From: Prevotella sp.
GTDB taxonomy: Bacteria > Bacteroidota > Bacteroidia > Bacteroidales > Dysgonomonadaceae
Direction: 5' to 3'
Length of the DNA stretch: 64,000 nucleotides
NCBI GenBank assembly: GCA_031285625.1
Contig: JAITVV010000092.1
Span: 157,679-221,678 of the forward strand
The notes under the pieces are model-generated. The model ran no database searches. It had not been told where the DNA came from and was given only the letters and a program-made list of their open reading frames with translations. A program made the translations under genes and the position numbers. Below are positions 721 through 33,688 of the stretch, piece after piece. Position 1 is the first letter of the stretch. Each line of letters opens with the position of its first letter.

Positions 721-1473
721 ATGAGAGAAAAGAGGGATTTAAATCTGGCAGTACTGATTGATGCAGATAATGTACCGTATTCTAATATAAAAGGTATGCT
801 GGATGAAATAGCCAAAATAGGTGTACCAACAATAAAACGTATTTATGGAGATTGGACAAAGCCAACAGTTTCGGGATGGAAGCAGCCGTTACTGGAGCAT
901 GCAATCACTCCGATACAACAATATAGCTACACTACGGGAAAAAATGCGACCGATTCTGCAATGATTATTGATGCCATGGATATTCTGCATAGTGACAAAG
1001 TAGATGGATTCTGTCTGGTTTCCAGTGATAGTGACTTTACCCGACTGGCAGTAAGACTCAGGGAATCTGGTATGCAGGTGATCGGTATAGGAGAGAAAAA
1101 GACGCCGAATCCATTCATTGTAGCCTGTGATAAGTTCATCTATATTGAAATTATCGGTGATTCTGAGGATCAGCAGGATACAACAACTTCTGCAACAAAG
1201 AAAGATAAAGAAAAGAATATAGAGCCTGTAAATAAAAAACTTATCAATCTGTTAAAGAGCACAGTGCGTGATCTTGCCGACGATGACGGCTGGGCCTATC
1301 TGGGAGATATAGGTAATCTCATTATTAAAAAGCGCCCCGATTTTGATTCCCGTAACTATGGTTTCTCCAAGCTTGCAGCTTTAGTAAAGGCGCAAAAGAA
1401 GGTATTTGAGATAGATGAACGAAAGACTGAAAAAGGACACTCGCAATTGGTATATGTGAAAATTAAGGAGTAG
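721..1473 (+). CDS. NYN-domain ribonuclease with C-terminal OST-HTH/LOTUS domain
   Basis: This 250-residue cytoplasmic protein has two parts. Residues about 8-150 form a NYN (LabA/DUF88, PIN-like) nuclease domain with the acidic motif LIDADN (D14, D16, N17), a conserved TDSAMIIDAMD segment and VSSDSDFTRLA. These acidic residues would bind the metal used to cut RNA. A charged linker (about 155-172) leads to residues about 172-248, which match an OST-HTH/LOTUS module (GWAYLGDIGNLI, then FDSRNYGFSKLAALV). That module is thought to bind RNA, including G-rich or structured RNA. NYN-LOTUS fusions are a known bacterial architecture, usually with unknown targets. Here the gene is about 0.9 kb from a Ro60 gene and Y-like RNAs, so those RNAs are natural candidate substrates; this is inference. 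The stop codon is 2 bp from that of the convergent lipoprotein gene. Confidence 0.9.
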   Translation: MREKRDLNLAVLIDADNVPYSNIKGMLDEIAKIGVPTIKRIYGDWTKPTVSGWKQPLLEHAITPIQQYSYTTGKNATDSAMIIDAMDILHSDKVDGFCLVSSDSDFTRLAVRLRESGMQVIGIGEKKTPNPFIVACDKFIYIEIIGDSEDQQDTTTSATKKDKEKNIEPVNKKLINLLKSTVRDLADDDGWAYLGDIGNLIIKKRPDFDSRNYGFSKLAALVKAQKKVFEIDERKTEKGHSQLVYVKIKE

Positions 1474-2243: not shown

Positions 2244-2329
2244 AAAAAAATCTTGTGAAGTAACTATCACAAAGAGGCTAGCAAATTTTAAGTCCGAAGG
2301 AACTCTATGCTACGACACTCACAAGATTT
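2244..2329 (-). ncRNA. Minimal Y-like RNA (Y0) in the 3' UTR of rsr
   Basis: Five bases after the rsr stop codon the minus strand has a strong 11-bp terminal helix (AAATCTTGTGA at 2329-2319 with TCACAAGATTT at 2258-2248). A run of seven U residues follows, so the helix can act as an intrinsic terminator. Inside it is the Y-type 5' strand GTGTCGTAGCATAGAGTT followed by CCTTCGG, and the opposite strand CTCTTTGTGATAGTTACTT. The same two strands recur in all the other Y-like RNAs of the window. Vertebrate Y RNAs have a comparable Ro-binding strand CCGAAGGUAGUGAGUUAUC (recalled, not aligned by program). The loop between the strands is only about 20 nt and holds no tRNA mimic, so this is a Ro-binding module alone. 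It is probably made by processing or termination of the rsr transcript. Confidence 0.75.
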
Positions 2330-2334
2330 CTCAT

Positions 2335-3849
2335 TTATAGTTCTATTTTTCTTACTTCGTCCAAAGCGTTCCCACCATTATCTATAGCCGATATGATGTC
2401 AAATATTTTATCGGACCAACCAGCTATCAAATACACATCGTTCTGAGTGATATCCAATGGAGTGTTTCCATAACCGGACAAGTCGAACAGATATAGCTTA
2501 CTGCTTGGTGATATCTTTTTATATTCATTCCATAGATCAGCTATTTTCTTGTCATTTTTGTTGTTCCACAATTGCAAATCAGTAAACATCATGACTTTAT
2601 CCATCTGTTGTTTTCTCTTTATCAGGTCTTCTATTACCAGATAACCGTTGGTTGCATAGCCTACTTCTCCTTCGCGGCGATAGAAAGCATCCACATTAGA
2701 CAATATACCTTGTGTAGGTACATTTATCACCTTCCACTTATCACCGAACATCCCGGTTATGGCATTTTCGCAGCGTGACTTCAATAGCATAGCCAGCATC
2801 AAACCTATATCATAACACAGTATTTTACTTTTAGCAGATACCGGACGTTGCATAGAGCCTGATACGTCACATGCTATCAGTACACTGGTGTCAGCATCAA
2901 AACCTTTTATATTTTCAGCAGATACAGCTACGGCTTTTTCCAATGCATCCAGTACACGGCTTGCATATGCAGACTTCACTTTAGATATTTCACGATACGC
3001 AGCCAGAAAACGGAATGGCAATTGTTTTGAACGACGTACAGCTTCCGGTGAAGCCAACGCACTGCATACTTTTATGATATGCTCTTTCGAAACATTCGAT
3101 TCCAGTATATTACGCAAGTTACGCATCAATGCCATATAGCCTATTTTACCACTATCTATCAGTTCTTCCCATTTGATGCGGAATGCAGTTCCCTTTTCAG
3201 CTTCGGAATCAAATTTTATTTGACCCAATGCAGAAAGTTCTGTTTCCCAAGTATATGGTGTTTCCAATGTATCATTTACTATCTTGTTGAACAAAGCCTG
3301 TTGGTCTTCATCCTTTGCCTTAGGGTGTACAAGAAATAGTGCATCACGAAGTTTTATTTCCGCATCACGATTATATTTTGCAAACTGATATTCATCAAAC
3401 CGGTTGAATGCATTCTGCAATCCGGCTTGTAGCTGTTTCGACAGACGATTTAGTTTCTTTGTGTCTTGTCTTTCATTAGCAAGCTGGTAGTAGGCCAACA
3501 GTTCTGTTATCTCATCTGCACGCTGCACCACTTGCAATACCATTTTGCTTACAGTAGAGTCTCCTCTGTGTATTTTAGCCAACTCTACAGCCAATACCAA
3601 TGGAATTGAACGCAGATTCATCTTCTGGCGTGTATATACAGCCAGCTGTGCTACAAATATCGGGTCACATCGTTTTATCAAACCACGCATTGTTTCAACT
3701 CGGGCTTGCGCGCTTTCGTAAAACTTGTCACTCAATGCAGAGGTAACGGCAGCAGTATACAATTGCCACTCTGGTGATAGACGGTATGCTTGTGCTCCTT
3801 CATAATTTACCACCTTGTTTTTTCCTTTGTTTCTGAAATTGAATTTCAT
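2335..3849 (-). CDS. rsr: Ro60 family ribonucleoprotein (Rsr), TROVE-VWA
   Basis: The 504-residue product matches the length and layout of bacterial Ro60 orthologues. Residues about 20-320 form the HEAT-like TROVE ring (for example SPEWQLYTAAVTSALSDKFY and FVAQLAVYTRQKMNLR). Residues about 322-500 form a von Willebrand A domain with an intact MIDAS motif DVSGSM at 328-333. Ro60 rings bind misfolded RNA ends in the central hole and Y RNAs on the outside. In Deinococcus and Salmonella, Rsr works with the exonuclease PNPase in rRNA maturation and decay. The identification is strengthened by Y-like RNAs: one directly 3' of this gene and more at 6662-7352 and 28785-28935. The gene has a long upstream region with two candidate control elements (3904-3938 and 4074-4113). 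No rtcB, rtcA or rtcR is present in the window, unlike the Salmonella arrangement. Confidence 0.95.
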   Translation of the reverse strand: MKFNFRNKGKNKVVNYEGAQAYRLSPEWQLYTAAVTSALSDKFYESAQARVETMRGLIKRCDPIFVAQLAVYTRQKMNLRSIPLVLAVELAKIHRGDSTVSKMVLQVVQRADEITELLAYYQLANERQDTKKLNRLSKQLQAGLQNAFNRFDEYQFAKYNRDAEIKLRDALFLVHPKAKDEDQQALFNKIVNDTLETPYTWETELSALGQIKFDSEAEKGTAFRIKWEELIDSGKIGYMALMRNLRNILESNVSKEHIIKVCSALASPEAVRRSKQLPFRFLAAYREISKVKSAYASRVLDALEKAVAVSAENIKGFDADTSVLIACDVSGSMQRPVSAKSKILCYDIGLMLAMLLKSRCENAITGMFGDKWKVINVPTQGILSNVDAFYRREGEVGYATNGYLVIEDLIKRKQQMDKVMMFTDLQLWNNKNDKKIADLWNEYKKISPSSKLYLFDLSGYGNTPLDITQNDVYLIAGWSDKIFDIISAIDNGGNALDEVRKIEL

Positions 3850-3903
3850 CTCTTTTAATTTTTAATGTTAAGGTCTTAACGACACTCTAATTGTTTGACA
3901 TTA

Positions 3904-3938
3904 CAAAGATTCAAAAACAAGTACGCAGCTTTTTTGCG
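3904..3938 (-). promoter_or_regulatory. Ro/Y shared promoter element, rsr copy
   Basis: Read on the minus strand this is ACGCA-N7-TGCGT, a perfect 5-bp dyad (core 3924-3938 with its flanking bases), followed 15 bp later by CTTTG (3908-3904). The same arrangement occurs before both Y RNA clusters. The bases after CTTTG (TAATGTCAAACAA) also resemble those at the second cluster. I read it as a regulator site just upstream of a divergent -7 box. The rsr start codon is 55 bp further on. Confidence 0.6.
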
Positions 3939-4073
3939 TAACAAAAACTTTCTTTTAAAACTTCTCATTTTTAACAATTATCATAAAAAAGTAACAAGTT
4001 ACATCGATCTCCAATATTCAATTAATTATTTGATTATTAAATATATGATTCTAACATCAAGCATAAAAAGTGA

Positions 4074-4113
4074 CAAAAGTAACAGGTTTTGCCCATTTTT
4101 TATTGTAACCTTA
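4074..4113 (-). promoter_or_regulatory. TGTTAC-type promoter element, copy A
   Basis: On the minus strand: GTTACA, about 22 bp, then TGTTACTTTTGTCACTTTTT. It contains a perfect Bacteroidetes -7 box TACTTTTG (4081-4074). It is one of four similar elements in the window (others near 8735, 28491 and 32001). Here it points at rsr from about 210 bp upstream and may be a second, distal promoter. A related palindrome GTAACAAGTTAC lies nearby at about 3991-4002. The rest of the 377-bp gap between rsr and the methyltransferase gene shows nothing else recognisable. Confidence 0.5.
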
Positions 4114-4203
4114 TTCTTTTATCGATATGCTGACCTAATAAGATAAAGTTTTTAAACAATCTCAAATCTGGTAATTTCATACTGATTATAAAAATAATAA
4201 GTG

Positions 4204-5167: not shown

Positions 5168-6226
5168 ATGACAATACAAGAAATAAAGGACAAAGGGCTA
5201 TTACTATTTGAATGCATAAGTGGCAGTAAGGCATATGGTCTGGATACACCAACTTCTGATACAGACCTGAAAGGAGTATTTTATCTACCGAAAGACCAAT
5301 TCTTCGGACTGGACTATATTACTCAGATAAATAATGAGACCAACGATGAAGTATATTATGAGTTGGGGCGGTTTGTAGAATTGCTTTGTAAAAACAATCC
5401 TAACATACTCGAAATACTAGCTTCCCCTGAAGACCGTATATTATACAAGCATCCTATTATGGATAGCTTAAATATCGAACTGTTCTTATCCAAACTCTGT
5501 AAGGAAACTTTTGCGGGTTATGCTCATTCACAAATCAAAAAGGCCAGAGGCTACAAAAAGAAGATCGTAAACCCGATGGAAAAAGAGCGGAAGGATGTGC
5601 CCGACTTCTGTTATATTCTCGAAGGATATTCTTCTGTTCCGGTAAAAGAGTGGCTACAGGCGAAAGATTACCTTCAGGAAAGATGCGGACTGAGTTCTAT
5701 ACCTCATACTAAAGGAATGTACGCCTTGTTTTATGACGAAGATGATAAATTCAGATATAAAGGAATAGTACATAATCCCGACGCCAATGAAGTTGCTTTA
5801 TCTTCTATACAAAAAGGAGAGAAAGAAGTCGCCTATCTGTATTTTAATGTTGAAGCTTATTCTTTGTATTGTAAAGAGTACAAAGAATACTGGGATTGGG
5901 TTGCCAATCGCAATGAAATACGCTATCAGGGTAATCAGCAACATGGAAAAAATTATGATGCAAAGAACATCATGCACACTATCCGGCTGTTGCAGGTTGC
6001 CGAAGAAATATTGCGTGATGGGAAGCTAAATGTAAAGAGGCCTAATCGAGAACAATTGCTGAATATAAAAGCTGGAATGATGGAATATGATGAACTCTTG
6101 GTAATGGCGGACGACCTGATGCACAGGATAGAGCAATATGTCGGTAAAAGCCACCTGCAAGATATTCCTGATAAGAATAAAATAGAGGAAATATTGATCG
6201 GGATGAGAGTGAAATTATATAAATAG
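5168..6226 (+). CDS. RlaP-type nucleotidyltransferase (DNA polymerase beta superfamily)
   Basis: This 352-residue protein starts with a nucleotidyltransferase core: CISGSKAYGLDTPTSDTDLK gives the Gly-Ser pair (G19-S20) and the Asp-x-Asp metal ligands (D31, D33). The downstream helical region (FVELLCKNNPNILEILASPE and NIMHTIRLLQVAEEIL) fits the PF10127/RlaP family. Comparative genomics has linked RlaP to RNA ligases, Ro60 and other RNA repair genes, with a proposed role of adding nucleotides to damaged RNA ends; this is family knowledge recalled without a search. The gene lies 29 bp after the methyltransferase gene and about 1.3 kb from rsr on the other strand. Its stop is immediately followed by, and overlaps by a few bases, the next open frame. 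Confidence 0.8.
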   Translation: MTIQEIKDKGLLLFECISGSKAYGLDTPTSDTDLKGVFYLPKDQFFGLDYITQINNETNDEVYYELGRFVELLCKNNPNILEILASPEDRILYKHPIMDSLNIELFLSKLCKETFAGYAHSQIKKARGYKKKIVNPMEKERKDVPDFCYILEGYSSVPVKEWLQAKDYLQERCGLSSIPHTKGMYALFYDEDDKFRYKGIVHNPDANEVALSSIQKGEKEVAYLYFNVEAYSLYCKEYKEYWDWVANRNEIRYQGNQQHGKNYDAKNIMHTIRLLQVAEEILRDGKLNVKRPNREQLLNIKAGMMEYDELLVMADDLMHRIEQYVGKSHLQDIPDKNKIEEILIGMRVKLYK

Positions 6227-6661: not shown

Positions 6662-6785
6662 TCAGGGTAATAAGGCGAAAAGGCTGATATAAACCGGCGC
6701 TTTACTTTAAGCTACGAAATCGATAGGTCTTGCACCTATATAATCCGGATCCCAAATCGAAGAAATCCTCTTCTACGACACCTGA
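6662..6785 (-). ncRNA. Y-like RNA Y5 with permuted tRNA mimic
   Basis: The ends pair as TCAGG/CCTGA, and the Y strand GTGTCGTAGAAGAGG is followed by TTCTTCG. Inside, in order, are a T-arm-like hairpin ATAGG-TGCAAGA-CCTAT (6739-6723), a short CGA/TCG helix, and a D-arm-like hairpin GCTT-AAAGTA-AAGC (6712-6699). The 3' Y strand CTTTTCGCCTTATTACC follows. T-arm before D-arm is the reverse of a normal tRNA, so the mimic is circularly permuted, with the Y stem in place of the anticodon arm. The T-loop departs from TTCnANN, so the mimicry is weaker than in Y3 or Y6. It is the last member of the array. Confidence 0.7.
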
Positions 6786-6795
6786 AATTATAAAA

Positions 6796-6933
6796 AACAG
6801 AAGTAACAAGCGAAAAGAGCGAGCGGGGCATGGCTTGCCGGAGTCGAACCGGATAGTCTCGCCGGATTTACGACCTCACTATTCCTCCCCTAAAATTGGT
6901 AGCCGAAGTATCTCTCTTCTACGACATTCTGTT
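6796..6933 (-). ncRNA. Y-like RNA Y4 with T-arm hairpin
   Basis: The terminal stem is AACAGAA/TTCTGTT. The Y 5' strand is TGTCGTAGAAGAGAGATACTTCGG and the 3' strand CTCTTTTCGCTTGTTACTTC. A T-arm-like hairpin CCGG-TTCGACT-CCGG (6852-6838) is clear. A D-arm is not; GGCA/TGCC next to the T-arm may be a shortened acceptor helix. An extra GC-richer segment (about 6856-6890) precedes the T-arm. It is a divergent member of the family with the T-loop signature kept. Confidence 0.65.
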
Positions 6934-6943
6934 ATATTTAATC

Positions 6944-7067
6944 AACAAGGCAACAAACGAACAGAGACTATAATAGCTTGCTCTACCCACTGAGCTACAC
7001 CCGAAGATGACAGGAATCGAACCCGTGACCCAGTTAACCGAAGTAACTCTATTCTACGGCACTTGTT
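6944..7067 (-). ncRNA. Y-like RNA Y3 with strong permuted tRNA mimic
   Basis: The terminal stem is AACAAG/CTTGTT. After the Y strand GTGCCGTAGAATAGAG and TTACTTCGG come four elements in order. First is a canonical T-arm ACGGG-TTCGATT-CCTGT (7026-7010). Second is a 4-bp acceptor-like helix CATC/GGTG (7009-7006 with 7001-6998) closed by a UUCG tetraloop. Third is a canonical D-arm GCTC-AGTGGGTA-GAGC (6995-6980) preceded by TA. Last is the 3' Y strand CTCTGTTCGTTTGTTGCC. Apart from order and the missing anticodon arm this is a tRNA core, with the two tRNA ends fused by a tetraloop. A normal tRNA gene is excluded because the D-arm lies 3' of the T-arm and there is no anticodon. Confidence 0.8.
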
Positions 7068-7085
7068 TGTACTAATTCACAAATA

Positions 7086-7202
7086 AACAAGGTAACAAGC
7101 ATAAAGAGCAAACTTTGTCCAACCTCGGACGTTGCGGGAGTCGAACCCTTTTCATTAATTGGCGTTTAGCAAACGAAGTAACTCTTTACTACGACACTTG
7201 TT
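7086..7202 (-). ncRNA. Y-like RNA Y2 with permuted tRNA mimic
   Basis: The terminal stem is AACAAG/CTTGTT and the Y strand is GTGTCGTAGTAAAGAG then TTACTTCG. A T-arm-like hairpin GGG-TTCGACT-CCC (7148-7136) is followed by GCAAC and a D-arm-like hairpin GTCC-GAGGTT-GGAC (7130-7117) with a GG in its loop. The 3' Y strand GCTCTTTATGCTTGTTACC closes the molecule. It starts only 8 nt after Y1 ends, so the two must come from one transcript or be processed from it. Confidence 0.75.
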
Positions 7203-7210
7203 ATATTATT

Positions 7211-7352
7211 TAAACAAGGCAACAAACGAGAAAAGCCTTTTTGATCTGGTGTCCTATTTTACTAGACGACTACAACTTACATTGCTGGCTGTTTTTTCAA
7301 CAGCGTTTCCAGAGTGGATTACGAAGTATCTCTTCCCTACGGCACTTGTTTA
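7211..7352 (-). ncRNA. Y-like RNA Y1, first of the array, inner domain not tRNA-like
   Basis: An 8-bp terminal stem TAAACAAG/CTTGTTTA encloses the Y strand GTGCCGTAGGGAAGAG then ATACTTCG, and the opposite strand CTTTTCTCGTTTGTTGCC. The inner part is different from the other members. It has CTGTT-GAAAA-AACAG, a small hairpin around GTCTA/TAGGAC, and a closing pair TCTGG/CCAGA, with no T-loop signature. It therefore looks like the same Ro-binding module carrying another cargo domain. It is the promoter-proximal RNA of the array. Confidence 0.7.
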
Positions 7353-7384: not shown

Positions 7385-7418
7385 CAAAGTAATAACCTTG
7401 ATGTGCAATCTTTTTGCG
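7385..7418 (-). promoter_or_regulatory. Ro/Y shared promoter element, array 1 copy
   Basis: On the minus strand: CGCAAAAAGATTGCA (7418-7404), 14 bp, then CTTTG (7389-7385), with TTACTTTG as a near-consensus -7 box. The downstream bases include AAAAGATCATT, shared with cluster 2 (GCGATCATT). Y1 begins about 33 nt after CTTTG. The dyad is less perfect here (GCGCA-N7-TGCAC) than at rsr. Confidence 0.6.
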
Positions 7419-7482: not shown

Positions 7483-8625
7483 TTATTTCCTATTGGGGTC
7501 ATATACAGCAACAGCCACACGTGAATCAGCACAGCCATAATACAGATACCATTTTTCATTATGTAATACCAGACCTTCAATGAACACTGTTCCTGCAGGA
7601 TATTGTCCACTCTTCTCAAAATCAGCTTCCGGAATATAGAAAGGCTTATCAAGCTGCCCGATCACTTTTGTCGGATCTTGCAGGTCGAACAATACCTGTC
7701 CTGCACAATAGGAGTTCGCAGTATATGCAGTATCACCTTCTGCTCCATCTGCATTTTTGCCATTATAAAGCAAAAGGATACCCTTGTCTGTCATTACAGC
7801 AGGTGGGCCACACTCTGTAAGAGAGCTATCAAACTTGCCCGGACGAGGCACTATCACTTTAAGGAAATCTCCGCTTTCTGTCAGTATTGGAGTCCAGTTG
7901 ATCAAATCATCGGAAGTTGCAACATTCACGAATTTTTCACCCCAATACATCCAGTATTTTCCATCAATTTTAGCAATTACCTGTTTTCCATCTACAATTT
8001 TAGTTATAATCGATGCCGACTTCGAAAAATCATCTTTAAAACGTCCGTCATAAGCTTTTGCAAATGCAGGCCCATGTTTTTCCCACTTTTGCAAGTCACG
8101 GGTAGTTGCTACAGCCAGGCGTGCCTGCTTTCTGTTCCATTGTGTATACAGCATCACATACATACCATCTTCAGTCATTGTAAGACGGGGATCTTCACAA
8201 CCTCCCGGCCATTCCAGCTCTTTCTGACTATCATTGTCAGGATAAAATGCCGGAGTAGATTTTCGTTGAAAATGCAACCCATCTTCCGACCATGCATATC
8301 CAAGGCGGGAAGTACGGCCACCTATACCCTCTCCCGATTTATCCTCTGCACGATAAAGAACTACTACCTTTCCATCATAAATAGTTGCTGCAGGATTGAA
8401 GGTATCATTCGATTCCCAGTCGACAGAATCTTTTCTCAACGGACAATAGAAACGGGTGGTAGCATCCGGTGAAATAATTGGATTTATCCCTTCCGGACGT
8501 TGAAAATCAGCCCATGCCCAATCCGGAAATTCCGAACCTTTTTCAGTTGGTTTCTTTTCATTACAAGAAACGAGCATAGCAGCTGTTGCTAAAAACAAGC
8601 TTACTTTAAAAATACTTTTTTTCAT
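7483..8625 (-). CDS. GH130 family beta-mannoside phosphorylase/mannosidase, lipoprotein
   Basis: This 380-residue protein has a lipoprotein signal (LFLATAAMLVSCNEKK, Cys near residue 21). The rest is a five-bladed beta-propeller of the GH130 type: FNPAATIYDGKVVVLYRAED, SEDGLHFQRKSTP, GGCEDPRLTMTEDGMYVMLY, YGCADSRVAVAVYD. Family members either phosphorolyse or hydrolyse beta-linked mannosides. Exported GH130 enzymes of Bacteroides mannan loci are beta-1,2-mannosidases, so hydrolysis outside the cytoplasm is likely here. It is the last gene of a run of mannosidase genes but has its own long upstream gap with a TGTTAC-type promoter element (8735-8775). The linkage specificity cannot be read from the sequence. 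Confidence 0.85.
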   Translation of the reverse strand: MKKSIFKVSLFLATAAMLVSCNEKKPTEKGSEFPDWAWADFQRPEGINPIISPDATTRFYCPLRKDSVDWESNDTFNPAATIYDGKVVVLYRAEDKSGEGIGGRTSRLGYAWSEDGLHFQRKSTPAFYPDNDSQKELEWPGGCEDPRLTMTEDGMYVMLYTQWNRKQARLAVATTRDLQKWEKHGPAFAKAYDGRFKDDFSKSASIITKIVDGKQVIAKIDGKYWMYWGEKFVNVATSDDLINWTPILTESGDFLKVIVPRPGKFDSSLTECGPPAVMTDKGILLLYNGKNADGAEGDTAYTANSYCAGQVLFDLQDPTKVIGQLDKPFYIPEADFEKSGQYPAGTVFIEGLVLHNEKWYLYYGCADSRVAVAVYDPNRK

Positions 8626-13679: not shown

Positions 13680-16010
13680 TTATATTCCCCACTCTTTATT
13701 CGGTTGGTCTCCCATATACAACTCAAGTACCCCGCCTTTAGAAATCTCTGAAAAATCGATAAAACAATCTTTATATTCCTTACCATTTAGCAAAGCTTTC
13801 TGGATATAGATATTCTTAGAAGAGTTATTATGAGCTTTTATTGTAAATGTATCTCCTGTATAATATTTAGGATCAAGCTTAAATTCCACTTTATTAAAAA
13901 CAGGGCTGGTAATTTCTAAACGTGTATCTCCCGGGCATACAGGATGTAATCCTGATGCTGCTAATACATACCAAGCGGACATCTGCCCCACATCTTCATT
14001 TCCTACAAGTCCTTCCACCTTATTGGTATAAGCTTTGTCGCAAATATGTCGTGTCCATTTTTGTGTAAGCCATGGTGTACCCAAACGGTTGAAAAGGAAA
14101 GGAACATGATGGACCGGCTCATTGGCATGATTGTAATAATCATTCCATAAAAGGCTTTCAGGTGTTTTCTCAAACATATTTGTAAGGTCGGCAACAGTTT
14201 TCTCCTGTCCTCCCATCAGTTCGACCATACCCGGAATATCATGCGGAACAAACCAGCCTTGCTGATATGCATTGGATTCTATACATCCGTACCATTCTTT
14301 GATACGTGCATTTTCAGGCCATTCTTCCCAAGTACCATCTTCTTTTTTAGGGCGGAACCAGCCTTTTTCTTTGTCGAAAATATTCTTATATGCCTGCCCT
14401 TTCTCTGCGAATAATTTCTCATCATCTGATTTTCCTAATTCTTTAGCCAGGCGTGAAATACACCAATCGGTATAGGCATATTCCAAAGTATGGGAAATAC
14501 TCAAAGAACCTGCCGTATAACCAAGTTTATCATTACCAAATATCTTTGAAGTGTTTAAGGCATATTTATAAGCTTTCTCAACATCATAATTGCGAATACC
14601 TTTGGTATATGCATCAGCTAAAACAGATAACGCCGGATTACCGATCATGCAACCGGAATATGCGTTTACTATTTCCCAACGCTCATAATATTCGCGACTA
14701 CTTTCGTCAGCCAAAGTTATCAAAGAGTTTAACTGATCATTTACCAATTCAGGATTGATAATTGTCTGAAGTGGAAACTGACTGCGGAATACATCCCAGC
14801 CACTGAAAATAGTTCGTTTTGTAAAATCTGTTGTACCATGAACCTTTTGATCTCCCCCTATATATCGTCCGTCTACATCAGCATAGGCACGCGGGTCTAT
14901 CATTGTATGGTAAAGGGATGTGTAAAAAATCGTTTTCTCATCTTTTGTACCGCCTTCTATCTTAATACGTCCGAGTTCTTTATCCCAGAGGCTTTTTGCT
15001 TCTTTTTGAATCTGGTCGAAATCCTTATTCACCATTTCCGCTTTGAAATTTTTCTCTGCACCATCCATATCTACAAAAGATATTCCTACTCTCAGTATAA
15101 CTTCTTCGTCTTTCTGAGTTTCAAATTCAGTGAAGAAACCAAGATGTTTTCCTTCAAGTTCTTCTTTCCCTTTAATTACAGGTGCTTCGGAAACTCTTTG
15201 CAGATAAGGGATACCTGTTGCTTCATCTATTTTACGTTTCCAGTCGTCAGGTATATTAGCACTCCAAAATCCATAATTATTAAGCGGCTTACTAAACTGT
15301 GCATAAAAATGAACGGTGTAATCGGTCTTACCTTCGCCATTTCCCCAGCCTCCGCCATCAGGAGTACATTTCATCCATCCTTGGATAGTACTATCGTTCA
15401 CTACCTTAATATATTGGTAAACAGAAGTCCCACCTACCCTACGGGCCAAATCTATTTGAATGCGCGACTGTTTGTTTTCGGGGAATGTAAACTTTAATAT
15501 CCCACTATGTGGTGCTGCAGTAGCCTCTACTTTGATATTATAATCGGTAAGTTCAGCCGAATAATAGCCGGCTTTGGCAATTTCTGTATTCTTATTGTAT
15601 GATGAACGATAACCTTTTATGCTTCCATCCTCTTTACCTGCAATTGTTTTCAGAGATCCGGTGGTAGGCATTACAAGGAAATTACCTAAATCGCCATACC
15701 ATCCCACTCCACTCATTTGAGTAAATGCAAAGCCCTCAATAGTCTGATGCTCATAGCTATAACCGGGACTATTGTCTCCCCCAGTGATAGTATTAGGACT
15801 TACCTGAACCATACCATAGGGAGTAGTTACACCGGGGAAAGTTTTCCCCAAGCCATGATAAGTTCCGGCAGCACCAACACTGGTACTGGCTCCAATAAAA
15901 GGATTAACATAATCAGAAGGGCTAAAATCTTCTACAGGCTTCGTAGCTGGAGTGCAGCTTGCTGCTATCAGACATAATCCTACTATAGAAGTTATTATCG
16001 CTTTATACAT
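13680..16010 (-). CDS. GH92 family alpha-mannosidase (3)
   Basis: This 776-residue protein begins with a lipoprotein-like signal (SIVGLCLIAASCTPATKP, Cys near residue 19), so it is probably surface or periplasmic and lipid-anchored. GH92 motifs include VNPFIGASTSVGAAGTYHGL, PYGMVQVSPNT, FSGWDVFRSQFPLQTIINPE, NAYQQGWFVPHDIPGMVELM, HANEPVHHVPFLFNRLG and GNEDVGQMSAWYVLAASGLH. It is 27 bp downstream of the GH38-like gene and probably in the same operon. Its HANEPVHH segment differs from the other two paralogues, suggesting another linkage specificity. Confidence 0.92.
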   Translation of the reverse strand: MYKAIITSIVGLCLIAASCTPATKPVEDFSPSDYVNPFIGASTSVGAAGTYHGLGKTFPGVTTPYGMVQVSPNTITGGDNSPGYSYEHQTIEGFAFTQMSGVGWYGDLGNFLVMPTTGSLKTIAGKEDGSIKGYRSSYNKNTEIAKAGYYSAELTDYNIKVEATAAPHSGILKFTFPENKQSRIQIDLARRVGGTSVYQYIKVVNDSTIQGWMKCTPDGGGWGNGEGKTDYTVHFYAQFSKPLNNYGFWSANIPDDWKRKIDEATGIPYLQRVSEAPVIKGKEELEGKHLGFFTEFETQKDEEVILRVGISFVDMDGAEKNFKAEMVNKDFDQIQKEAKSLWDKELGRIKIEGGTKDEKTIFYTSLYHTMIDPRAYADVDGRYIGGDQKVHGTTDFTKRTIFSGWDVFRSQFPLQTIINPELVNDQLNSLITLADESSREYYERWEIVNAYSGCMIGNPALSVLADAYTKGIRNYDVEKAYKYALNTSKIFGNDKLGYTAGSLSISHTLEYAYTDWCISRLAKELGKSDDEKLFAEKGQAYKNIFDKEKGWFRPKKEDGTWEEWPENARIKEWYGCIESNAYQQGWFVPHDIPGMVELMGGQEKTVADLTNMFEKTPESLLWNDYYNHANEPVHHVPFLFNRLGTPWLTQKWTRHICDKAYTNKVEGLVGNEDVGQMSAWYVLAASGLHPVCPGDTRLEITSPVFNKVEFKLDPKYYTGDTFTIKAHNNSSKNIYIQKALLNGKEYKDCFIDFSEISKGGVLELYMGDQPNKEWGI

Positions 16011-27903: not shown

Positions 27904-28253
27904 AATCTTAAAAAAATTAATAATTTATTGTTTAGTAGTTCATTGTATCCGGCGTCTATCACTCTCTCGTCAACCGGATGAGGTCGTAGTATGGATTTCT
28001 TAGTTACATTCATAAAGATTTATTGGTTAGTATTAGGTGAATTATTTCATAGCATAAGATATTTTAGTGTTATCATCTTATGAACGACTTAGGATTAAAA
28101 TACCACTAAAACATTTTTCAATTTCGTGAAAATAAGGGCTTAAAGAATTAAAAGGCCGGCTGATTAAATAAATAATCAATCGACCTGTATTTTAGAAGTT
28201 AATCTTACAATAACTTATTCTATTTTAGCTTTTTGTAAAACTCTGTAAGTTTA
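27904..28253 (-). other. susC upstream region, non-coding
   Basis: No gene is seen in this 350-bp stretch. It has an 8-bp inverted repeat CATAAGAT (28053-28060) / ATCTTATG (28075-28082) and a small hairpin TGATTA/TAATCA (about 28161-28178). Either could be a regulator site or a leader structure of susC. No clear TAnnTTTG promoter was found. Confidence 0.4.
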
Positions 28254-28460: not shown

Positions 28461-28490
28461 ATTCAATCTTATTTACCATACATTAAAAAA

Positions 28491-28534
28491 GTGACAAAAG
28501 TAACAACTTATACATATATTTTATCTGTTACTTT
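28491..28534 (-). promoter_or_regulatory. TGTTAC-type promoter element, copy C
   Basis: On the minus strand: AAAAGTAACA, 23 bp, then TGTTACTTTTGTCACTTTTT with the -7 box TACTTTTG. It lies directly upstream of the small gene ending at 28254 and downstream of the second Y RNA cluster. Confidence 0.5.
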
Positions 28535-28581
28535 TTCTTTCTGTCCCATTTATATTAGACAATCTTAATTATATATTCTTG

Positions 28582-28777
28582 TACTCCTAATGAGATTCGA
28601 ACTCATATTCCCTTTCGGGCAGTACGGCTCTAAATACGCTTCCCTACTTTTCAGTTAAGAATTTCGGTGCATCTGTAAAATCTACCCATAACAACGCGCA
28701 GCTATTACGGGGCTATCCATACACTCTATGGTAAGTCTAAATTTTGCCACAGGCTTTTCCTTTTAAGCTATAGGAGC
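28582..28777 (-). ncRNA. tRNA-like RNA in normal order with a ~140-nt structured insert
   Basis: A 7-bp acceptor helix GCTCCTA (28777-28771) pairs with TAGGAGT (28588-28582), the outermost pair being G-U. TA and a D-arm GCTT-AAAAGGAA-AAGC with GG in the loop follow. At the other end is a perfect T-arm ATGAG-TTCGAAT-CTCAT. Between D-arm and T-arm, where an anticodon arm should be, lies a long insert. It contains CCATA-GAGTG-TATGG, an 11-bp hairpin around CCGTAATAGC/GTTGTTATGG, ACT-GAAA-AGT and CCC-GAAA-GGG. The insert also has GTAGGGAAGCGTAT, like the Y1 strand GTAGGGAAGAGATAC. It begins 7 nt after Y6 and is probably co-transcribed. No CCA is encoded and no anticodon is evident. No group I intron core or tmRNA reading frame was recognised. 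The class is unresolved. Confidence 0.6.
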
Positions 28778-28784
28778 AAATTAT

Positions 28785-28935
28785 AAACGAGGTAACAGGC
28801 GAAAAGAGACTGTTTATCCTGCTCTACCACTGAGCTACACTCCCGTTAATTTGTATTACTGAGAGAGTGAGGGGACTCGAACCCCCGACCCGGGCATTAA
28901 AAGTGCGAAGTAACTCTAATCTACGACACTCGTTT
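28785..28935 (-). ncRNA. Y-like RNA Y6 with near-complete permuted tRNA
   Basis: A 7-bp terminal stem AAACGAG/CTCGTTT bears the Y strand GTGTCGTAGATTAGAG then TTACTTCG, and the 3' strand GTCTCTTTTCGCCTGTTACC. The inner part is a tRNA with reversed halves. A T-arm GGGGG-TTCGAGT-CCCCT (28886-28870) comes first, then acceptor 3' strand CACTCTC (28869-28863) and an 18-nt connector. The acceptor 5' strand GGGAGTG (28844-28838), TA, and the D-arm GCTC-AGTGGTA-GAGC (28835-28821) follow. All seven acceptor pairs form (one G-U). Only the anticodon arm is missing, replaced by the Y stem. It would be read by tRNA-binding enzymes as a tRNA body with joined ends. Confidence 0.8.
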
Positions 28936-28972: not shown

Positions 28973-29006
28973 CAAAGTAAAAGCACCGGAGCGCAGTGTT
29001 TTTGCG
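28973..29006 (-). promoter_or_regulatory. Ro/Y shared promoter element, cluster 2 copy
   Basis: On the minus strand: CGCAAAAACACTGCG (29006-28992), 14 bp, then CTTTG (28977-28973) as part of TTACTTTG. TATCATCAAACAA follows, close to the sequence after CTTTG at rsr. Y6 begins about 37 nt after it. Confidence 0.6.
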
Positions 29007-31976: not shown

Positions 31977-32000
31977 TATCAAATACTTTATATACAAAAA

Positions 32001-32044
32001 GTGACAAAAGTGACAGTTTTTATATGTTTCTTTATTGTTACTTT
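32001..32044 (-). promoter_or_regulatory. TGTTAC-type promoter element, copy D
   Basis: On the minus strand: AAAGTAACA, 23 bp, then TGTCACTTTTGTCACTTTTT. The -7 box is CACTTTTG, one base off consensus. It drives the small gene at 31746 and the C26-M19 fusion. Confidence 0.45.
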
Positions 32045-32107
32045 TTCTTCTTTTGTTACTTGTTAACTTGTATCTCGTACCTTGTCAACTTTCTCATTTA
32101 TAATAAT

Positions 32108-33610: not shown

Positions 33611-33685
<75 letters not shown>

Positions 33686-33688
33686 CTG

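Follow-up and report, generated by a model that had tools for sequence, protein, structure and literature searches.

The closest described counterparts of the locus analysed here are the Y RNAs of Salmonella, whose operon is named rsr-yrlBA-rtcBA, i.e. holds two Y RNAs (PMC7790460, in the part available). Control by RtcR and one tRNA-like module are described in the available parts of two sources (PMC7790460, PMC8394870), and the YrlA domain is stated to resemble the D, T and acceptor arms of tRNA (PMC8394870). In the Deinococcus radiodurans RYPER (Rsr-Y-PNPase) a Y RNA ties Rsr to an enzyme; this arrangement, as given in the portions available, was used as the model here (PMC8394870, PMC4726728).

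The locus lies in a 64-kb stretch of DNA (the window; genome G000, contig C37). Against the available text on Salmonella, it is alike in its adjacent Ro60 orthologue, in an end-paired stem, in a module that resembles tRNA in its T, acceptor and D arms, as in YrlA/YrlB, and in a putative link to RtcB and to RNA damage. It differs in having seven units, not two, in further module types and in its control elements, a palindromic operator and a candidate WYL regulator taking the place of RtcR; in the window's genus, Hen1-PNKP and RlaP genes also stand behind this operator. Unlike the single PNPase in the available account of RYPER, several different modules here suggest several partners. The locus is read here as an RNA-damage-induced set of Rsr adaptors, with predicted Rsr binding, processing and cargo; the probability of this reading was put at about 0.58.

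In the circularly permuted tRNA genes known from algae and archaea, the 3' half precedes the 5' half and the acceptor ends are joined. The Y modules likewise have the 3' half first and the acceptor ends joined, but here the anticodon arm or the D-loop has given way to the Y stem, and maturation into tRNA would not be expected.

Five minus-strand units (U1-U5) were found in the 64-kb window by an independent finder. They span 7352-6662, measure 142, 117, 124, 138 and 124 nt and are separated by 8, 18, 10 and 10 nt. Number, strand, span and lengths had been given in an original prediction made on this DNA and were reproduced exactly. U6 and U7 stand apart from the array, and an eighth unit lies in the same genome, 2.7 kb outside the window. 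The units were as follows.

7211..7352, minus strand: Y unit U1, first of the array; finder, both inner hairpins in the predicted fold
7086..7202, minus strand: Y unit U2; finder, orthologue in locus L036
6944..7067, minus strand: Y unit U3, YrlA-type; finder, T-arm and D-arm detected, sub-threshold Rfam YrlA match
6796..6933, minus strand: Y unit U4, conserved Bacteroidota subtype; BLAST and covariation
6662..6785, minus strand: Y unit U5, last of the array; finder, T-arm detected, T-run behind
2252..2325, minus strand: Y unit U6, a short one immediately 3' of rsr; finder, T-run behind
28785..28935, minus strand: Y unit U7, YrlA-type with long acceptor loop; finder, T-arm and D-arm detected

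The array is flanked by an RlaP gene on one side and a glycosyl-hydrolase-130-type gene (7483-8625) on the other. It had been placed near rsr, and this gene was located as below.

2335..3849, minus strand: rsr, Ro60 orthologue (Pfam TROVE 6.5e-31; vWA_Ro60 27.4 bits, cut-off 27.7)

A strict 5'-core pattern occurred at six places in the window (U1-U4, U6 and U7; U5 was missed) and at none in 100 shuffles. At the gathering score, Rfam returned no Y unit in the window, its sole match there being a tRNA. ARAGORN called only tRNA-His (33612-33686) in the window and no Y unit as a tRNA gene. A candidate unit at 27976 (plus strand) was absent from the scored list. Matches to tmRNA in the array comprised the T-arm only, and readings as a CRISPR-like array or a T-box leader were dropped on reading of the sequence. 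The T-runs of U5 and U6 may act as terminators. A general terminator role for the last unit of an array was rejected (T-run behind 58/163 last vs 37/117 internal units, p 0.52).

Folding with RNAfold and covariation in relatives had both been named as checks in the original prediction. Folding energies of U1-U6 as single sequences were no better than those of shuffles (z -1.73 to +0.92), and covariation was therefore relied on instead. It was found in relatives for the terminal helix, the T-stem, the acceptor and the U4-type helices.

A unit was accepted by the finder if a 5' core TGNCGTAG with CTTCG was accompanied by a 3' strand that held a GTT-like motif, if two pairs formed at the bulge and if the outer helix had 4-5 pairs or more. 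Over 108 loci, 289 candidates were obtained vs 12 in reversed sequences at a score of at least 32, and 280 vs 5 at a score of 34. The consensus, helix, T/D-arm and covariation counts were made on units freed of redundancy by means of shared 8-mers. In the resulting 242 units, the 5' consensus was purines, a bulged U (98%), G (98%), Y, C-G-U-A (98-100%), AGAG and UUACUUCG, and the 3' consensus CUCUU, CG, U, GUU, R and C; the core letters were search criteria too, so that their percentages are partly built in.

Outer pairs 1-5 were Watson-Crick in 36-39 of 41 units vs shuffle means of 13-24 (3' strand set by motif only). The inner helix of these 41 units was 90% paired in one register vs 38-59% in eight other registers. 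The pair beside the bulge was Watson-Crick in 94/102 vs a shuffle mean of 51.5 and maximum of 69 (partner set by the outer helix only). All these shuffle controls ignore relatedness. The ends of each unit thus pair, as had been claimed, and the terminal helix with its bulged U covaries across the family and is shared by all of U1-U7. By analogy, it would be the Ro-binding motif and serve as a putative grip for Rsr.

Among the family's 88 genomes of at least 80% completeness, five had rsr, all in the window's genus. The Y 5' core (at most one mismatch) occurred in 5 of 25 genus genomes, namely the five with rsr, and not in the backwards control; rsr had been searched in 21 of the 25, four being left out as less complete. 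The best 80 of 502 rsr-encoding loci by Rsr alignment were then taken as a sample of near relatives. At least one unit was present in 77 of these 80, at least two in 61, at least three in 48 and at least five in 11, and 228 of their 232 units were on the strand of rsr. Over all loci, 117 neighbouring pairs of units lay at most 60 nt apart, with a median gap of 11 nt. A view of the arrangement as peculiar to this genome was not supported. Since several units beside rsr are common in Bacteroidota, the window array is a clear case of a widespread arrangement and not unique. According to its abstract, a 2014 RNA paper on bacterial Y RNAs reportedly covers more than 250 species with Y RNAs close to Ro60, each species having one or more that are tRNA-like. 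Several Y RNAs per locus are therefore likely to be already known.

Of 20 viral contigs that carry a Ro60 relative (L010-L029), 12 also had Y-type units, up to three in each. In Xanthocytophaga (L105:5581-11268, beside rsr) Y units lie among eight tRNA genes, with a ninth tRNA at 15769. L018 was omitted from alignment A1 due to a stop inside its translation.

A T-arm was detected in 158 of the 242 units and in none of the reversed or shuffled inner domains of the same units. T-arm and D-arm were both detected in 79, with the T-arm first in 77 of them. U3 and U7 hold T-arm, joined acceptor and D-arm in YrlA order within the Y stem. In U3 the acceptor is closed by UUCG; T-arm, D-arm and this joint had been read there beforehand, and both arms were detected. 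The T-acceptor-D order was not detected in U1, U2, U4 or U6, and in U5 was seen by eye only. In 74 non-redundant YrlA-type units, T-stem pair 1 was invariant and pairs 2-5 were Watson-Crick in 59-66 vs shuffle means of 31-53. With the 3' strand ahead of the 5' strand, acceptor pairs 2-6 were Watson-Crick in 50-66 of 59-74 vs 19-27 when shuffled. The covariation of T-stem and acceptor confirms the predicted tRNA with swapped halves and joined acceptor ends.

A search with the Rfam YrlA model (RF02553), also suggested beforehand, matched U3 at 35.2 and U7 at 34.3 bits. Both scores are under the gathering score of 69, unlike Salmonella YrlA. The consensus order of the model is T-arm, acceptor, D-arm. 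From this order and the description in the available part of PMC8394870, the T/acceptor/D module is the YrlA design and as such known.

U4 had been described as keeping the T-arm only. This proved incomplete, as U4 comprises a GGGG/CCCC closing, a covarying 5-bp helix with a hairpin, and the T-arm, and the domain besides the T-arm is kept across Bacteroidota. Its inner domain was found at 43 places by BLAST (E<0.001), 39 of them inside scored units, the window's own included, and the type ranges from Dysgonomonas to Flavobacterium, Pedobacter and Chryseobacterium. The covariation alignment (A2) held 25 of 32 non-redundant units; seven divergent ones were left out. In these 25 units, 98.8% of cells were paired and 13 pairs had changes on both sides, with none in the GGGG/CCCC closing stem. 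Covariation was 0.281 vs 0.140 when shuffled (reached in 0/500) and at most 0.069 in slid versions. One of the five measures, the number of further pair types, was 28 vs 26.0 and was reached by 41/500 shuffles. RNAalifold alone recovered the terminal helices, the 5-bp helix, its hairpin and the T-arm; it paired part of GGGGAGG with the core CUUCG and not with CCCC. No Rfam family matched U4. A reading of U4 as an rRNA mimic was rejected (similarity 23 vs shuffle maximum 26).

The inner parts of U1, U2 and U5 rest on reading, since orthologues at E<0.01 were few or none. U1 has an inner hairpin GCUGUU-GAAAA-AACAGC and a GUAA-capped stem GCAAU-GUAA-GUUGU, both in the predicted fold. Its domain, without an orthologue at E<0.01, had been called unrelated to the others; this was corrected in part, as GUCGUCUAG...UAGGACACC at its end looks like a Glu/Asp-type D-arm by eye. 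T-arm followed by D-arm had been proposed for U2 and U5. By eye, U2 has a hairpin CGUUU-GCU-AAACG and a T-arm with a 3-bp stem, so that the T-arm stands; an acceptor-type hairpin GUCC/GGAC follows in place of a clear D-arm. A U2 orthologue was found in one locus, L036 (84% over 64 nt). In U5 the T-arm was detected (loop UGCAAGA), and the D-like arm was seen by eye alone; no orthologue of its inner domain was found at E<0.01. Position 55 of this loop is G, and in such UGCRA-type T-loops it presumably could not become pseudouridine. By eye, the last position of the array is held by a U5-like unit with this type of T-loop in L036, L007, L042 and L146.

The proposal of a modular family, with a constant stem and exchangeable inner domains beside rsr, is thus supported by covariation. 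The same covariation of the helices tested refutes in the main the idea of a graveyard, in which tRNA-derived repeats without function were spread by duplication and drift. Tandem order, variable number and tRNA-like modules would fit such a history, as would the Y units among tRNA genes of L105. It was nevertheless judged highly improbable, the U4 type being kept across the phylum, the units being associated with rsr in the genus and an operator being shared as described below.

Further module types were found in relatives. A tRNA opened at the D-loop, with the Y stem in its place, was present in 7 of 299 units, in the order D 3' half, anticodon-type arm, T-arm, closed acceptor, D 5' half. 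The strict pattern gave a mean of 0 in controls with all letters shuffled and 0.08 with each side of the T-loop shuffled. A loose detector of D-loop permutation had performed at chance level (5 units observed; 27/820 over five shuffled rounds) and was replaced. A second type has a Y core followed by a 23S-like stretch, and was found in nine loci of Dysgonomonas, Chryseobacterium, Xanthocytophaga and others.

L007:6144, L042:10746, L047:9666, L080:10163, L114:10010 and 10163, L115:11594: D-loop-opened tRNA mimics, strict pattern
L149:6761-6973 (window's genome, 2.7 kb outside the window), L147, L037, L105, L084, L086, L096, L077, L104: 23S-mimic loci

The 23S mimics share exact matches of 11-27 nt with the same place of a Dysgonomonas-genus 23S gene, which we take to be H69 to H71; matches of 11 nt alone prove nothing. 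A profile of three mimics, anchored on the shared word, scored 26.5 bits at that place vs 17.2 for the best of 200 shuffles. Singly, by local alignment, the two Dysgonomonas mimics tried were weak: that of G015 scored 28 vs a shuffle maximum of 35, and that of the window's genome 29 vs 26, its best match lying at another place of 23S. The Xanthocytophaga mimic scored 36 vs 26. Eight of the nine units aligned over their full length with the 3' Y strand in place; L104 was left out of this whole-unit alignment (A3). D-loop-opened tRNA mimics that keep an anticodon-type arm look new, as does an H69-H71 mimic in a Y RNA. As far as the available text of the sources goes, both modules are unreported among the literature matches listed for bacterial Y RNAs, Bacteroides/Bacteroidetes and 23S; the 2014 survey and two reviews lie outside these matches.

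Most modules of the family imitate RNA of the translation apparatus. Some copy likely sites of attack, i.e. anticodon-type arms and, in the Y8 type, H69-H71. They could therefore be decoys for ribotoxins and anticodon nucleases or for tRNA enzymes, with Rsr only shielding them from decay. A proposal that YrlA could inhibit an anticodon nuclease has been made, and no YrlA fragments were found (PMC7790460, available part); the former favours decoys and the latter speaks against them. The putative RNA-repair regulon would suit decoys as well. However, the T-arm is present in 158 of 242 units and a separate anticodon-type arm in few, and in several D-loop-opened units, by eye, a tetraloop or triloop takes the place of the anticodon loop. 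Decoys were thus considered unlikely, and the modules were taken as parts of Rsr adaptors.

A further tRNA-like RNA was found directly downstream of U7.

28577..28776, minus strand: conserved ~200-nt tRNA-like RNA; homologues and covariation

Its acceptor, D-arm and T-arm are tRNA-like, and a large insert takes the position of the anticodon arm. Homologues were found in 19 other loci, 17 round rsr and two in further Y clusters of rsr-bearing genomes. RNAalifold on 18 sequences gave 45 pairs, 28 with changes on both sides; L078, L089 and the second L146 copy were partial and were omitted from this alignment (A4). Its 5' signature occurred in 3 of 25 genus genomes, all with rsr. It had no Rfam match of its own and was not called by ARAGORN. 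A dispersed intergenic repeat, AAAGTAACA...GTTACTTTTGTCACTTTTT, was noted at window 4065-4119, 28485-28539 and 31996-32049, two copies being 80% and 84% like the copy behind U7.

rsr, the array and U7 share CGCAAAAANNNTGC-N14-17-CTTTG, i.e. a palindrome TNCGCA-N6-TGCGNA (or near) before a -7 element.

7385..7418, minus strand: shared operator and -7 element before the array (G000:C37:165063-165096)
3904..3938, minus strand: shared operator and -7 element before rsr (G000:C37:161582-161616)
28973..29006, minus strand: shared operator and -7 element before U7 (G000:C37:186651-186684)
5168..6226, plus strand: RlaP-family RNA-repair nucleotidyltransferase, between rsr and the array (PF10127, 5.7e-26)

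The operator search was confined to genus genomes. It yielded 27 exact sites in 11 of 25 genomes and none in the backwards control. Sites were assigned, partly by eye, to rsr (5), Y clusters (9), RNA-repair genes (8) and other or no target (5); one Y-cluster operator lies ~230 nt before its unit. Among the RNA-repair genes were Hen1-ligase-PNKP (G010 and, by eye, G004), RtcB (G011, G017 and, by eye, G381) and RlaP-type operons (G010, G004 and G011, by likeness to the window's RlaP). The RlaP gene of the window itself has no exact operator, and none was found within 110 nt upstream of the 23S-mimic unit in L149 and L037.

An orthologue of a WYL-domain regulator (at least 70% identity) was present in 10 of 25 genus genomes. 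The operator occurred in 9 of these 10 vs 2 of the 15 without it (Fisher p 2.4e-4, relatedness ignored). The exceptions were two genomes without the regulator, with one operator match each, and G013, which has the regulator and no operator. Seven of 13 WYL copies lie within 1 kb of an operator site and divergent to it. In the window's genome the WYL gene lies at C37:141076; its neighbours include an RNA ligase, a NADAR gene and a kinase-type protein whose HD match falls just below the cut-off. We infer that the WYL protein binds the palindrome. To our knowledge, no RtcR-type control is known for the phylum Bacteroidota. A palindromic operator common to rsr, Y clusters and RNA-repair genes looks new, and its sharing with RNA-repair genes would be the best functional evidence for the locus.

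Other genes were noted near operator sites. L184:1158-2489 (443 aa; near copy in L185), directly behind the shared operator, matched no Pfam family, and L186:1285-3522 (745 aa), also directly behind it, had a sub-threshold RING match only; these genes are candidates for further regulon members. A protein with NYN and OST-HTH/LOTUS domains is encoded near rsr (window 721-1473), and in L036 its gene is divergent to an operator site.

In two relatives the array directly precedes rtcB (RtcB by Pfam model), and the start of this gene lies 22 nt (L042) or 21 nt (L007) beyond the last Y unit; the window's genome carries rtcB elsewhere, on contig C29. This adjacency would suit units that form a structured leader, through which Rsr on nascent mRNA controls or stabilises the downstream message, as would the Y-core-like GTGTCGTTA in the rsr 5' UTR. 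The stretch AGAGTGTCGTTAAGACCTTAAC of this UTR (window 3850-3903, minus strand) resembles the Y core, several relatives keep a near version, and autoregulation of Rsr through it is possible. As a general account of the units, a leader was considered quite improbable: no same-strand gene was found behind the array when this stretch of the window was read, U6 and U7 stand apart, and units are complete and end-paired throughout the family.

The reading as a damage-induced set of Rsr adaptors, considered the simplest and most likely one, brings these features together. RNA damage would be sensed and the WYL regulator would open a regulon of rsr, Y clusters and RNA-repair genes. The polycistronic Y transcript would be trimmed at its 8-18-nt linkers into units, each held by Rsr at the terminal helix with the bulged U. 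Through its inner module, each Rsr-Y particle would then engage enzymes that recognise tRNA or rRNA by shape, such as nucleases, RtcB and modification enzymes, and Rsr could thereby handle several kinds of damaged or misfolded RNA. Sequence evidence establishes the units, helices and modules, the co-occurrence with rsr, the shared operator and the adjacency of array and rtcB in relatives.

A wider view is offered tentatively, with somewhat less than even chances of being right. In Bacteroidota, a whole library of Y RNAs might have Ro60 as its common chassis, some copying separate parts of the translation apparatus and others carrying other conserved modules, all made under WYL control together with RtcB and Hen1/PNKP, as a damage-induced, module-addressed system of RNA repair and quality control. 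Such a library would contain permuted tRNA cores, anticodon-bearing D-loop-opened tRNAs, 23S H69-H71 and U4-type modules.

The array makes the role of bacterial Y RNAs, so far clear in a few species only, directly testable. A constant grip with many modules beside rsr, tied by an operator to RNA-repair genes, allows a series of tests in which enzymes are matched to modules. With the 23S mimic and the anticodon-bearing modules, the mimicry of Y RNAs would reach past the tRNA core, and the operator gives a handle on an RNA-damage response in Bacteroidota.
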